A DNA stretch of 22,311 nucleotides from IMG/VR virus record IMGVR_UViG_3300031758_000632, positions 1 through 22,311 of that record, one strand, 5' to 3'. A program made the translations under genes and the position numbers. The notes below the pieces were generated by a model. The model did no database searches. It was not told the DNA's origin and saw nothing but the letters and a program-made list of their open reading frames with translations. This document shows positions 6,921 to 15,722 of this stretch, piece by piece (within the stretch, counting starts at the first letter, position 1; each line of letters opens with the position of its first letter). The DNA comes from a virus.

Positions 6921-7084
6921 GTGCCACTCTCCATTCGGGATTTTAAACGCTCCAGCATTGTTTTGACAACGAATGCACGGGCTTTGACTTCAGTAGGTAT
7001 GGCGTGGCCATAAACTTCTGGATGAAGTAGGTCATTGACCAGGTCGAGGGATGCGTCAATGGCTGGTGGTAGGTCATTGGTCAT
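6905..7084 (-). CDS. Small 59-aa protein of unknown function
   Basis: Read directly from the sequence: ATG at 7084-7082 and TAA at 6907-6905, giving a protein that begins MTNDLPPAIDASLDLVNDLL and ends RMESGTWPEA. The start overlaps the end of the methyltransferase gene by 11 bp and the gene's end overlaps the winged-helix-like gene by 16 bp. That continuity of overlapping frames is the main reason to believe it. It appears mostly helical, with no cysteines, membrane segment or recognised motif. Confidence 0.6.
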   Translation of the reverse strand: MTNDLPPAIDASLDLVNDLLHPEVYGHAIPTEVKARAFVVKTMLERLKSRMESGTWPEA

Positions 7085-7827
7085 TTAAGATTTTCCAAGC
7101 TGTTGCTGCGCAGAGTGGGACTTGGCCATTGCCGATGGCTTTAGATCGGTCCAATGCATAGGCCACCCCATCACCCATTCGAGCCACACTGGGTTCAATT
7201 TGCCACCACTGCTTTGTTCCAAATCCCTCACTGCCTGGTTGATTGTGTATTGCGCTTGATGGCCTGATTTTCTTTTCGGAGTCCAATTGGGTTGAGTCCC
7301 CCTTTGGCCACAACTCGCGTCTGGTGTTGGAAATGTTTGTCCCACAAATCCAGATTCTATCCCTCTGATGGTTTGCTCCAATGTCCGCTGCTCCCAGCAC
7401 TCCCCATCTCGCATCAAACCCCATTGCGGCCAAGTCTCCGAGAACTCTTCCAAGTCCCCTAGAAGTGAGCATTGGTGAGTTTTCCACAAACACGAATCCT
7501 GGCTGTACTTCGTGAATGATCCGCGCCATTTCACGCCACATTCCGCTTCTGTCGCCATCAATACCCGCCCCCCCCCCCCGAGATTGAGATGTCTTGGCAT
7601 GGAAAGCCGCCAGATACGACATCAACAATGCCTCGCCATGGGTGGCCGTCAAAGGTTTGTACGTCATCCCAGACTGGGAAAGGCGGGAGAAGGCCGTCAT
7701 TTTGTCTGGCGCACAATACGCTTGCTGGGTAGGCCTCCCACTCGACTGCGCAGACTGTGCGCCATCCAAGGAGATGCCCTCCAAGTATTCCGCCACCAGC
7801 GCCTGCGAAAAGAGCCAGCTCATTCAT
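7074..7827 (-). CDS. C5-cytosine DNA methyltransferase (Dcm-like), frame broken at a 12-G tract
   Basis: The intact enzyme would be about 250 residues from the ATG at 7827. Motifs in order: I (FAGAGGG, residues 7-13), the acidic residue of motif II (AVEW), D of motif III (DVQTF), IV with catalytic Cys77 (GGFPCQ), VI (VENSP), VIII (HQRDRIWI) and X (AIGNGQVP). The target-recognition region between VIII and X is short, as in compact phage enzymes. Motifs I-IV read in one frame and stop at 7558-7560 after 89 residues; motifs VI-X read in another. With 11 Gs instead of 12 the frames join as DISISGGGAGIDG, matching the canonical spacing after PCQ. The start overlaps the upstream stop by 8 bp. It likely methylates phage DNA against restriction or for regulation. 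Whether the break is real, variable or a sequencing error cannot be told here. Confidence 0.85.
7568..7579 (-). repeat. 12-base poly-G tract (C on plus strand)
   Basis: Twelve consecutive C on the plus strand, the longest G/C homopolymer in the window. It lies six codons after the catalytic Cys codon of the methyltransferase. The full protein needs a tract of 3k+2 bases (11 or 14); 12 puts the N-terminal half out of frame. Such tracts are classic slippage sites and also classic sequencing-error sites. Confidence 0.95.
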
Positions 7828-11855: not shown

Positions 11856-14024
11856 ATGAAACACCCAACTAAAGGAATTTCAGTGGCAATCATAACTGAA
11901 ACACCCCAAAACGACACGTTTGTCCAGTCCCAGTCTGTGGCCTGCAAGATAGGCGCAGTCGCACCCGATGCCGTCTTTTGTACCTTTGCCCTGCAAGGCA
12001 ATAAAAAGATTCCATACAAGCGAAGCGGCCAAGGTGTTGCACGGGATACAGACCCAGCAGAACTCTACACATCCGAAGACATTTGGGCCATGGAGTCAGC
12101 CCCAAGTGGCCAATACCTTGGCCTTGTCCAGCAGCGCCCCATCATCAGCGCATCAGGAAACTATTTGGTTTGCCTTGATGTAGACATGAAACACGCCTCT
12201 GGCCCGACCAACGTGGCCATTCAGCGCATGGCAAAGTATGTCAAGCAAAAGAAGATGCTGACCGAGGTTTCTGTCTCAGGCCGTGGCCGTCATGTCTTCT
12301 TATGGGTCTCACCACCCAAAGAATCTGACCTGGTGCTGCCCAAGTACAAGCTAGGCGGTGGTCAGGAACTGGAAGTATTTGGCCTCCCAAACAGTGCCGG
12401 AAAGTCAGTGCTACTCAGTGGCAACGCTGTGGTGGGTGAATTCCAAGAGGCTGTGGACCTTTTTAGTCTTCTACAAGACTGGGGCATCATCGAGCAGCAC
12501 CAGATGCAAGAGCCAAAGCCTGCACCACCTACACAATCATTTGACTTCACCCAATTAGGCTCAAGACTTGAAGACAGCGATCTTGATCGTGCCATCAAGG
12601 CTTTGCACCACATCAGCCCCGACTGTGACTATGACCAGTGGATTGAGCTAGGCCAAGCGCTGCACACCGAATTCGGAGAGGCTGGTCTTGGCCCATGGAT
12701 GCAATGGTCTATGGCTGGCCAGAAGTTTGCCGGCACAAAAGACATTGAGACCCACTGGAAGTCATTCCACCAGGGCAAAGGTGTTGGTCTTGGCACACTC
12801 TACAAACACGCCAAGGACTGTGGCTGGGAAGCCCCAACCAAGCAGACCGAGCGTAAAAGTGCGGTGGAAGACTTTGCAGCGGTGATCAGTCAGGCCCAAG
12901 CACCAGTGGCCACAGATGAAGTCAAAGGCTGGCCAGAGCGCCATCTATTCATTGGCCAGATCAAGCCGATCCGCTACATGGTTAAAGGATTCTGGGCGCA
13001 CAGTTTCATGGTACTGGCCGGTCAGCCTGGCATTGGCAAGACCACGGCCATCATCAGTCTTTGCATGGTCATGGCAGGCTTACAGGCCAAGGACTGCCAA
13101 CTTACAGCCACCAAAAAGCGCAAAACAATCATCGTGACTGAAGACTCTGACCAGGTTGAAAGAACATTAACAGGCTATGCACGGCATTATGGGATAAACC
13201 CCAAAGCATTATCAGACTGGTTTGTCATCATCGATGCCAAAAGGTCCAATGTGAAAGATTTACTCATGCTTGCGCATAATGTAATAAACCACACGATTGA
13301 TAATATCCGGCCATTATTGGTACTTGACACGGCCAATGCCACCATGGATATTGATAATGAGAATGACAACTCTGAAGTGGGTGCATATATTGCCGCCCTA
13401 AAGCAGACCATCTATATCCAACTGGACACGCCAGTCTGCATCATCACCCACACGAACAAAACAATCAGCAAGTCAGACTCAGATGCCACAGCCCGTGGAG
13501 CAAGTGCATTCACGGGTGACGCAACCCTCACCGGCATTCTGTTTGAAGACGAGACCAAGACCCGATATATGCGCCTGGTCAAAACCCGTTACCAACCCAA
13601 CTTCAGAGAAATTAAATTCCATAGTGATGTCTTTGCCGACACAGTCTTGGATGAAGATGGAGATATCCAAGAGCAGATGGTGCTACTGGTAGTCCCAGAA
13701 ATGTCATCAGAGGAAGACCGAAGGCAGGCAGCCAATGACAGGATGAATGACAAGCGCCAGCAACAAGTCCAAGATGCCGCAGATGCTGCCTGCAACTTTG
13801 TCCAAAGCATCATCAATGCTAAAGGCGCAGTCATTATGCGCAGAGGGTCAGGGCGGCCATCAGTGCCAAAGGAGATGGCAGGGATGCACCAACTTGAGTG
13901 GGCCGACATCTACCAAGCAGTGCCAATGGCTGACCAAAGCTATGCCAGACGGGCAGTAGGCGCGGCTATTTTCCAGCGCTTCTGTCAGGACCAATCAGGC
14001 AATGGGTGGGTGCAAATAAAGTAA
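11856..14024 (+). CDS. Primase-helicase: prim-pol, PriCT-like and RecA-type ATPase domains
   Basis: 722 residues from the ATG at 11856 (AAGGG 9 bases upstream). A GTG at 11883 with AAGGAA 5 bases upstream is an equally good start. The N-terminal archaeo-eukaryotic primase-like domain shows CLDVDMKHASG (acidic metal-binding pair, about 105-112) and SVSGRGRHVFLWV (140-152). A PriCT-2-like segment DCDYDQWIELGQALHTEFG (254-272) follows. The ATPase domain has Walker A LAGQPGIGKTT (about 386-396), Walker B LLVLDTANA (about 485-493) and THTNKT after it, as in RepA/AAA_25 hexameric helicases. It would make primers and unwind the fork. The C-terminus may carry a small DNA-binding domain. Its stop codon lies in the first repeat of the candidate origin, so initiator gene and origin are adjacent, as in many plasmids. 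Confidence 0.85.
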   Translation: MKHPTKGISVAIITETPQNDTFVQSQSVACKIGAVAPDAVFCTFALQGNKKIPYKRSGQGVARDTDPAELYTSEDIWAMESAPSGQYLGLVQQRPIISASGNYLVCLDVDMKHASGPTNVAIQRMAKYVKQKKMLTEVSVSGRGRHVFLWVSPPKESDLVLPKYKLGGGQELEVFGLPNSAGKSVLLSGNAVVGEFQEAVDLFSLLQDWGIIEQHQMQEPKPAPPTQSFDFTQLGSRLEDSDLDRAIKALHHISPDCDYDQWIELGQALHTEFGEAGLGPWMQWSMAGQKFAGTKDIETHWKSFHQGKGVGLGTLYKHAKDCGWEAPTKQTERKSAVEDFAAVISQAQAPVATDEVKGWPERHLFIGQIKPIRYMVKGFWAHSFMVLAGQPGIGKTTAIISLCMVMAGLQAKDCQLTATKKRKTIIVTEDSDQVERTLTGYARHYGINPKALSDWFVIIDAKRSNVKDLLMLAHNVINHTIDNIRPLLVLDTANATMDIDNENDNSEVGAYIAALKQTIYIQLDTPVCIITHTNKTISKSDSDATARGASAFTGDATLTGILFEDETKTRYMRLVKTRYQPNFREIKFHSDVFADTVLDEDGDIQEQMVLLVVPEMSSEEDRRQAANDRMNDKRQQQVQDAADAACNFVQSIINAKGAVIMRRGSGRPSVPKEMAGMHQLEWADIYQAVPMADQSYARRAVGAAIFQRFCQDQSGNGWVQIK

Positions 14025-14071
14025 AGCGGTAAACAGGTAGTAAACAGGTAGTAAAGCGGTATACCTGTTTA
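14022..14071 (+). repeat. Iteron-like 10-bp repeats, cluster 1
   Basis: Copies of TAAAGCGGTA (14022-14031, 14052-14061) and TAAACAGGTA (14030-14039, 14041-14050), and one inverted TACCTGTTTA (14062-14071). Spacings are 8, 11 and 11 bases; 11 is about one helical turn, putting copies on one face of the DNA. The last two copies form a 20-bp imperfect palindrome. The first copy begins at the primase-helicase stop codon. Confidence 0.85.
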
Positions 14072-14093
14072 GACAATGGCTGGCTCTGTTGGT

Positions 14094-14120
14094 ATAAGTG
14101 GGGGTCGTAGACCCACTTAT
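14094..14120. repeat. Hairpin next to a DnaA box
   Basis: ATAAGTGGG (14094-14102) pairs with CCCACTTAT (14112-14120); TC/GA pairs continue inside after a GG bulge, closing on the loop GTA. The right arm ends in the first four bases of the DnaA box at 14117, so extrusion and DnaA binding would compete. Confidence 0.6.
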
Positions 14121-14125
14121 CCACA
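14117..14125 (+). other. DnaA box TTATCCACA
   Basis: A perfect match to the high-affinity bacterial DnaA box (TTATNCACA). It lies between the two iteron-like clusters, in the non-coding stretch 14025-14227. Confidence 0.6.
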
Positions 14126-14153
14126 GGCAAGTCTGGCAAGTTTTGTGATGGTG

Positions 14154-14206
14154 AAAAGTAAAGCGGTAAAGCGGTAGATTTCCTTTGTCCATACCGCTTT
14201 ACTTTT
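14154..14206. repeat. 15-bp perfect inverted repeat with two more iteron-like copies
   Basis: AAAAGTAAAGCGGTA (14154-14168) and its exact complement TACCGCTTTACTTTT (14192-14206), 23 bases apart. A second direct TAAAGCGGTA lies at 14167-14176, offset by 8 as in cluster 1. On the plus strand the right arm is followed by AACGATTTTT, so a weak terminator role is also possible for the primase-helicase transcript. Confidence 0.85.
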
Positions 14207-14227
14207 AACGATTTTTGGAGGTTATCG

Positions 14228-14560
14228 ATGGTCCAACAAGTTGAACAGTTATCCACAGGTTATCCACAGTCGTTGGATGAGAGGGTTTTTTGCCATGAAT
14301 GTCAGCATTCATGCATGGTCGAGCAGCGCCAGTCCATGCCAGCAGAGCAGATGGAAAGGCACAGGAAGGTCAACTCAAAACCACTCCAGTGGATGTTTGA
14401 CCAGGCAAAGATTAGGAATGGATGGGCAACCATCACATGGTCCGAACATCAGTGCGGCCAGACTGGCCTTGCCGCATTCCCAACCGATGTCAAACACCGA
14501 TGCCATTTGTTCCAAGCCAAAGCCTCGGCAGTAGAATCGGAGTCATGGTGGTTGACATAA
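14228..14560 (+). CDS. Cys-rich, putative zinc-binding protein
   Basis: 110 residues. The start is decided by GGAGG at 14217-14221, six bases before the ATG. Residues 22-29 read CHECQHSC, and further Cys occur at about 76 (EHQCGQ) and 92 (KHRCHLF). This spread of CxxC plus later Cys/His resembles small phage zinc-ribbon proteins. Codons 8-14 contain two perfect DnaA boxes, so part of the origin lies inside this gene and the coding sequence is constrained by it. The 3' end overlaps the VRR-NUC gene by 16 bp. DNA binding is plausible but unproven. Confidence 0.65.
   Translation: MVQQVEQLSTGYPQSLDERVFCHECQHSCMVEQRQSMPAEQMERHRKVNSKPLQWMFDQAKIRNGWATITWSEHQCGQTGLAAFPTDVKHRCHLFQAKASAVESESWWLT
14249..14268 (+). 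other. Two tandem DnaA boxes, 11 bp apart
   Basis: TTATCCACA at 14249-14257 and again at 14260-14268, same orientation, one helical turn apart. Both are perfect matches and in the same orientation as the box at 14117. They fall inside the start of the Cys-rich gene. Confidence 0.65.
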
Positions 14561-15412: not shown

Positions 15413-15457
15413 TTCAGTCACTTTATACAACGATCATTATGTTAAGTGGACAAGTCG

Positions 15458-15466
15458 TTATCCACA
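15458..15466 (+). other. DnaA box TTATCCACA
   Basis: Perfect consensus box, 46 bases after the small terminase stop codon. First of three in this segment. Confidence 0.6.
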
Positions 15467-15498
15467 GAATTAAGTGCATCAAAGTATTACAAGCCTAG

Positions 15499-15507
15499 TT
15501 ATGCACA
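15499..15507 (+). other. DnaA box TTATGCACA
   Basis: Perfect match to TTATNCACA with G at the variable position. It lies seven bases before an inverted box. Confidence 0.55.
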
Positions 15508-15513
15508 GGAATC

Positions 15514-15522
15514 TGTGGATAA
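15514..15522 (-). other. DnaA box, inverted (TGTGGATAA)
   Basis: Reverse complement of TTATCCACA. It faces the box at 15499, forming a convergent pair. Confidence 0.6.
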
Positions 15523-15630
15523 AGTTGGCCAAAATCTGGGGACAAGTCGGTGGTGGCCAGCTGGCGGTCGGTGGCGCGACCCCCCCCATGGCCGGATCGG
15601 AGGGGGCGACTGTGGCGGCACTAAACACCT

Positions 15631-15670
15631 ACAAAAAAAATTTTCTAAAAAATAAAAAAATAATTTAACA
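15631..15670. other. AT-rich tract, candidate DNA unwinding element
   Basis: Only 3 of 40 bases are G or C, made of A runs, a TTTT and TAAAAAAATAATTTAA. It is by far the most AT-rich stretch in the window and lies about 110 bases from the DnaA boxes. It could also be an upstream promoter element for the small-gene run that follows. Confidence 0.6.
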
Positions 15671-15722
15671 AACAAGTCAAATTGTGCAAAAATGTCAACT
15701 CCACAAACAACGGAGCAAACGA

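Follow-up and report, generated by a model that had tools for sequence, protein, structure and literature searches.

The iteron plasmids RK2, R6K, P1 and F have winged-helix Rep initiators that lack primase and helicase, and the alpha protein of phage P4, whose helicase is of the SF3 type, is not known to require DnaA. The origins of these plasmids combine iterons with DnaA boxes, and DnaA aids the opening of the duplex (PMC4980987). In P4 alpha, a Toprim-type primase, the helicase and a C-terminal DNA-binding domain are found in one chain, which binds the origin repeats (PMC4234260). The oriV of the IncQ plasmid RSF1010 comprises iterons, the hexameric helicase RepA, a primase and hairpins near the origin, and in pRN1 (ORF904) and phage BIP-1 the (proposed) origin lies 3' of a prim/pol-helicase gene and has a conserved stem-loop (PMC4234260). 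In the PLE satellites of Vibrio cholerae, the DNA-binding domain of the initiator RepA and the iterons change or swap together (PMC8263062). Finally, the A-site of the ABC primosome is a DnaA box inside a single-stranded DNA hairpin, according to PMC6127211, citing Masai et al. 1990.

Here, we describe a locus from a viral sequence of 22,311 nucleotides (IMG/VR record IMGVR_UViG_3300031758_000632, positions 1 to 22,311, one strand), hereafter referred to as the window. Sequence comparison indicates that this site is very probably a DNA replication origin, and on our best reading the primase-helicase of the phage would recognize it through its C-terminal domain, with host DnaA assisting.

Iterons and DnaA boxes next to the primase-helicase gene

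The primase-helicase gene (positions 11856 to 14024, + strand) codes for 722 amino acids with a prim/pol-like N-terminal region (assigned by PHROG matches), a PriCT_2 domain (residues 247 to 319), an AAA_25 ATPase of the RepA type (residues 361 to 536) and a C-terminal domain. We propose this protein as the putative initiator. Its stop codon (14022 to 14024) falls within the first copy of an iteron, so that, as in iteron-type theta origins, an array of short repeats adjoins the proposed initiator gene. The pattern TAAANNGGTA was found eight times, always between 14022 and 14201, against 0.18 copies expected in the 22 kb, which bears out the original prediction of eight copies of TAAA(GC/CA)GGTA within about 180 bases and nowhere else in the window. 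Six copies lie on the + strand (14022, 14030, 14041, 14052, 14159 and 14167) and two on the − strand (14062 and 14192). They form a left group (14022 to 14071, +) of four direct copies and an abutting inverted copy (14062 to 14071) and a right group (14159 to 14201, +) of two direct copies and an inverted one (14192 to 14201). Read in order, the steps are 8, 11 and 11 up to the abutting inverted copy, then 97 bp, then 8, with the last, inverted copy 25 bp further on. The predicted spacing of 8 or 11 holds for the direct copies within the groups, but the inversion of two copies had gone unmentioned.

Perfect DnaA boxes (TTATCCACA) were found five times in the window against 0.17 expected, and allowing up to one mismatch there were 13 matches against 4.4 expected, a number reached in none of 100 shuffles. 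The three perfect boxes that had been predicted to follow the repeats are present on the + strand, but the first (14117 to 14125) comes after the left repeat group and before the right one, where it is part of the 3' arm of a hairpin. The other two (14249 to 14257 and 14260 to 14268) are, as foreseen, 11 bp or one helical turn apart inside the next gene, ORF110 (14228 to 14560, +), which codes for a CxxC protein. The tally of three was incomplete, as two perfect boxes, at 15458 (+) and 15514 (−), had been missed. Together with TTATGCACA at 15499 (+), they make up a second cluster (15458 to 15522). Wherever ORF110 has Leu-Ser-Thr at box 2, these residues are encoded by TTA TCC ACA in all variants listed; in the primase-helicase, these codons account for only 0.16, 0.14 and 0.35 of their respective amino acids. 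No clear AT-rich unwinding element was seen when the sequence from 14022 to 14268 was read by eye.

Conservation of the layout among relatives

The set of relatives comprised 80 sequences, 70 of which could be read across the origin region by means of an anchor motif. Three of the remaining ten (L017, L080 and L070) have the region with an altered hairpin, and the others end before or inside it. These 70 relatives, the window and its copy L081 gave 72 rows, which fell into iteron classes 1, 2 and 3 (43, 8 and 21 rows, respectively). The repeats change in concert, from TAAA(CC/GC/CA)GGTA in class 1 to TAATGCGGTA in class 2 and TAAT(G/A)CGGAA in class 3, with the 8/11/11 spacing and the presence of an abutting inverted copy preserved throughout. 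In all, more than 70 relatives share the layout, with an iteron sequence that shifts in concert between lineages. In MW202879.1, whose primase-helicase is 52% identical, and in its kin (class 4), the same layout is built from unrelated iterons of the type TCGGAGATACC, and further iteron variants were found in L170, L171, L172 and L246. In most relatives read, ORF110 contains one more iteron, the ninth, of the class found at the locus; the window lacks this copy.

Searched as DNA against named phages, the origin gave short DnaA-box matches only, and the plasmid search gave only partial matches, covering at most 29% of the query among the matches listed. For the double box TTATCCACAGGTTATCCACAG (14249 to 14269), phages phiK7A1 and vB_KpP_FBKp16 gave short matches that were not significant. 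The search of genome contigs returned one match, the phage-like contig L170, which was assigned, perhaps wrongly, to the bin of an uncultured Acidimicrobium MAG; besides its own iteron variant, it has six perfect DnaA boxes.

The family is one of small freshwater phages, and the genome of the phage described here would be about 36 to 38 kb long. The site is surrounded by genes for an Enc34-type single-strand-binding protein, an SNF2-type helicase, a DUF2800/PD-(D/E)XK protein and a VRR-NUC protein, as well as an Sf6-type small terminase, the large terminase and the portal. Neither DNA_pol_A nor Phage_integrase (tyrosine integrase) was matched in 12 records (the window, ten relatives and MW202879.1), the polymerase profile search covering family A, and the annotation of the complete MW202879.1 names no DNA polymerase. 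A match to a C5-cytosine methylase (7074 to 7823, −) was seen in only two of the class 1 rows compared, one of them perhaps that of the window; no row of class 2 or 3 had it. A serine resolvase gene (966 to 1634 in MW202879.1, our L149) occurs only in class 4 genomes, a hint that this lineage resolves dimers or has a plasmid-like phase.

The second DnaA-box cluster is present in classes 1 to 3. It belongs to a second conserved noncoding element, located after the small terminase gene (15413 to 15680 in the window), that contains, in addition to the boxes, a stretch rich in G+C that has tracts of C and of G, and then an A/T tract at about 15633 to 15668. In class 4, the G+C-rich and A/T parts of this element are kept and the boxes are absent.

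DnaA-box confinement and GC skew

All 39 perfect copies of TTATCCACA in ten near-complete relatives (35 to 39 kb) are located either in the origin region or in the second cluster, about 1.4 kb downstream. We evaluated the cumulative GC skew after detrending, because the raw minimum depends on the point at which the circle is cut; the raw minimum was set aside, since net skew ties it to that point. The detrended minimum was found 114 to 336 bp upstream of the hairpin DnaA box in 11 of 11 near-complete genomes, which, being related to each other, do not amount to 11 independent trials and of which ten are linear contigs closed by assumption, only MW202879.1 being recorded as circular. Genes on the + strand of the relatives had a third-position skew of −0.10 to −0.23 upstream of the site and of −0.04 to +0.07 downstream. 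The window agrees, with its cumulative minimum at 13604 and a third-codon-position skew that goes, on the same strand, from about −0.2 (SNF2, DUF2800 and primase-helicase) to +0.14 (ORF110) and +0.32 (large terminase). The change in skew that the original prediction had offered as a check is therefore present at the site. Concerted iteron change, confinement of the DnaA boxes and the skew minimum all support its proposal of an initiator-plus-DnaA origin, in which the call on host DnaA and the lytic lifestyle are presumed.

The C-terminal domain of the primase-helicase follows the iteron class

When class 1 and class 2 proteins were compared, 14 columns separated the two without exception, all of them at residues 627 to 716 of the primase-helicase and thus in the C-terminal domain (residues 627 to 722; 13734 to 14021, +). 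There were no such columns in the single-strand-binding, SNF2, DUF2800 and VRR-NUC proteins, the 66-amino-acid HTH protein, one 93-amino-acid protein, ORF110, the small terminase or residues 1 to 600 of the primase-helicase; the methylase and the other 93-amino-acid protein had no class 2 rows and so fell outside the comparison. Four relatives (L018, L026, L035 and L037) join a class 1-like ATPase region to a class 2 C terminus, iterons and hairpin, with the switch point near codon 610, and may share one ancestral exchange event. From these patterns, the C terminus and the iterons appear to be exchanged between phages as one unit, and the iterons appear to be read by the C-terminal end of the phage's own primase-helicase. 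This co-inheritance is in part physical linkage, because the region coding for the C terminus adjoins the iterons; nevertheless, ORF110, on their other flank, has no class-separating column despite its closeness.

Residue 665 is S in 39 of 39 sequences with TAAA repeats and P or A in 30 of 30 with TAAT repeats, a correlation with iteron base 4 that involves few independent events. Along these lines, L172 has TAAA repeats and S665, and L170, otherwise its closest relative, has TAAT repeats and A665. The residue is located in an AT-hook-like motif, RRG[S/P/A]GRP (13842 to 13859 in the window), the GRP of which is missing in class 4, where the iterons are unrelated. A Pfam search of the C-terminal domain gave no match. 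Its structural model (pLDDT of 88) found nothing significant in the PDB with Foldseek, with or without the preceding strands and helix, and we therefore do not assign it to the winged-helix fold. Against viral models, its sole significant match was a homologue of 91% identity.

A conserved hairpin with a DnaA box in its stem

Between the two iteron groups there is a conserved hairpin (14088 to 14125, +) with an imperfect, bulged stem, and the DnaA box at 14117 lies within this stem, as in A-sites of the ABC primosome. Folded as single-stranded DNA, it gave z-scores of −4.2, −6.1, −4.0 and −5.3 in the four classes. In class 4, all 14 pairs are kept in ten distinct sequences, with three pairs changed on both sides. 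Classes 1 to 3 together with L172 keep 98.6% of the pairs over 23 distinct sequences, with four of nine pairs doubly changed; this set includes loci outside the motif filter, which hold further paired changes. The covariation score of either set was reached in none of 500 shuffles, although related sequences can beat shuffles without any structure; slid controls stayed low. Paired changes could also arise if a dimeric protein bound a symmetric site in duplex DNA. One-sided changes between standard pairs (G-T type), as G-U tolerance would give, were absent from both sets, so the pairing pattern leans, weakly and on small numbers, toward a hairpin acting as DNA rather than RNA. In L017 and L080, the stem pairing is kept even with the box changed to TTGTCCACA. 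Apart from these cases, nearly all relatives read retain the box in the 3' arm, while other parts of the stem vary.

Proposed function and alternative explanations

Judging from these signals, initiation would begin with the C-terminal domain of the primase-helicase binding the iterons directly 3' of its own gene, which would place the prim/pol-like domain and the hexameric ATPase of the RepA type there. Replication would presumably also depend on host DnaA, which would bind the hairpin box and the two boxes of ORF110 and aid duplex opening. The hairpin, extruded once its strand is single-stranded, might then act as a helicase-loading or priming site for one strand. Synthesis would probably be carried out by host DNA polymerase III, because no phage polymerase was found. 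More specifically, we tentatively suggest that the fused prim/pol-RepA-type helicase reads the iterons through its C-terminal fold, residue 665 of RRGxGRP reading base 4, that the hairpin is an A-site, so that the phage initiator and host DnaA both load machinery there, and that C terminus and iterons form a mobile specificity cassette.

A different role for the hairpin within an origin would be that of a priming or assembly site for the phage prim/pol-helicase itself, like ssiA/ssiB of RSF1010 for RepB' or the proposed stem-loop of pRN1, the DnaA box being secondary. RSF1010 does unite iterons, RepA helicase and ssi hairpins, and pRN1 and phage BIP-1 have their stem-loop 3' of the prim/pol-helicase gene (PMC4234260). 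The varying stem sequence with its pairing kept, even in the two genomes with an altered box, points the same way. On the other hand, the box is retained in nearly all other relatives read, and we regard this role as the less likely one, though a serious candidate.

The iterons could instead be operators through which the primase-helicase or another phage regulator controls the downstream genes, with the hairpin acting in RNA as a terminator or attenuator. An intergenic position ahead of ORF110 and the mix of direct and inverted repeats suit a regulator, and the hairpin would be transcribed. However, there is no sigma-70-like promoter or intrinsic terminator between 13900 and 14300, an Rfam search gave no match, the 66-amino-acid HTH protein does not follow the iteron class, and the two-sided stem changes without G-U intermediates fit DNA better, albeit in small numbers. 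As the skew minimum and the DnaA boxes would also be left unexplained, we consider such a purely regulatory role improbable; autoregulation may accompany origin function. Even less credible is that, in place of an origin, the site serves recombination (res) or packaging (pac). The small terminase gene is nearby and class 4 genomes have the serine resolvase, but classes 1 to 3 share the layout without a resolvase, for which the res idea was dropped, the small terminase has no class-separating columns, and boxes and skew would again be unaccounted for.

Comparison with known systems

A replication origin read by the primase-helicase and assisted by DnaA would share features with each of the systems introduced above. 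As in P4 alpha, a primase-type region (here prim/pol-like), a helicase and a putative C-terminal DNA-binding activity would be combined in one protein, but here the ATPase is AAA_25 (RepA type) and the site has DnaA boxes and a hairpin. RSF1010 uses three separate proteins and leading-strand-only synthesis, whereas here there is one fused protein and the hairpin has a DnaA box. Plasmid iterons measure 17 to 22 bp (PMC4980987), compared to about 10 bp here, spaced by 8 or 11 bp. In pRN1 ORF904 and BIP-1, the helicase is SF3, no iterons were found acting as origin and DnaA boxes are unreported.

That such a hybrid origin is little described in lytic-type podoviruses with primase-helicase replication, as originally claimed, agrees with the literature searched (partial coverage), where we found no description of one, nor of iterons, a fused primase-helicase and a DnaA-box hairpin together in a phage without a detected polymerase. 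The locus would be a compact phage origin in which host DnaA seems to work together with a multidomain primase-helicase. Natural swaps pair protein residues with iteron bases, making initiator-iteron recognition directly testable, and the natural use of a DnaA-box hairpin as an A-site becomes directly testable as well.

The hairpin has its closest precedent in the ABC primosome A-site (PMC6127211), with the ssi sites of RSF1010 and the stem-loop of pRN1 as alternatives (PMC4234260); unlike the A-site, the stem here is bulged and placed within an iteron array, and DnaA use is putative. The C terminus and iterons of these primase-helicase phages appear to co-swap as described for PLE (PMC8263062), although PLE has a RepA_N initiator and is a satellite on the replisome of its helper phage, unlike the phage studied here. 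The principles, that is, iterons with DnaA, a fused initiator and co-swapping, are known singly, and their combination at this locus appears to be new.
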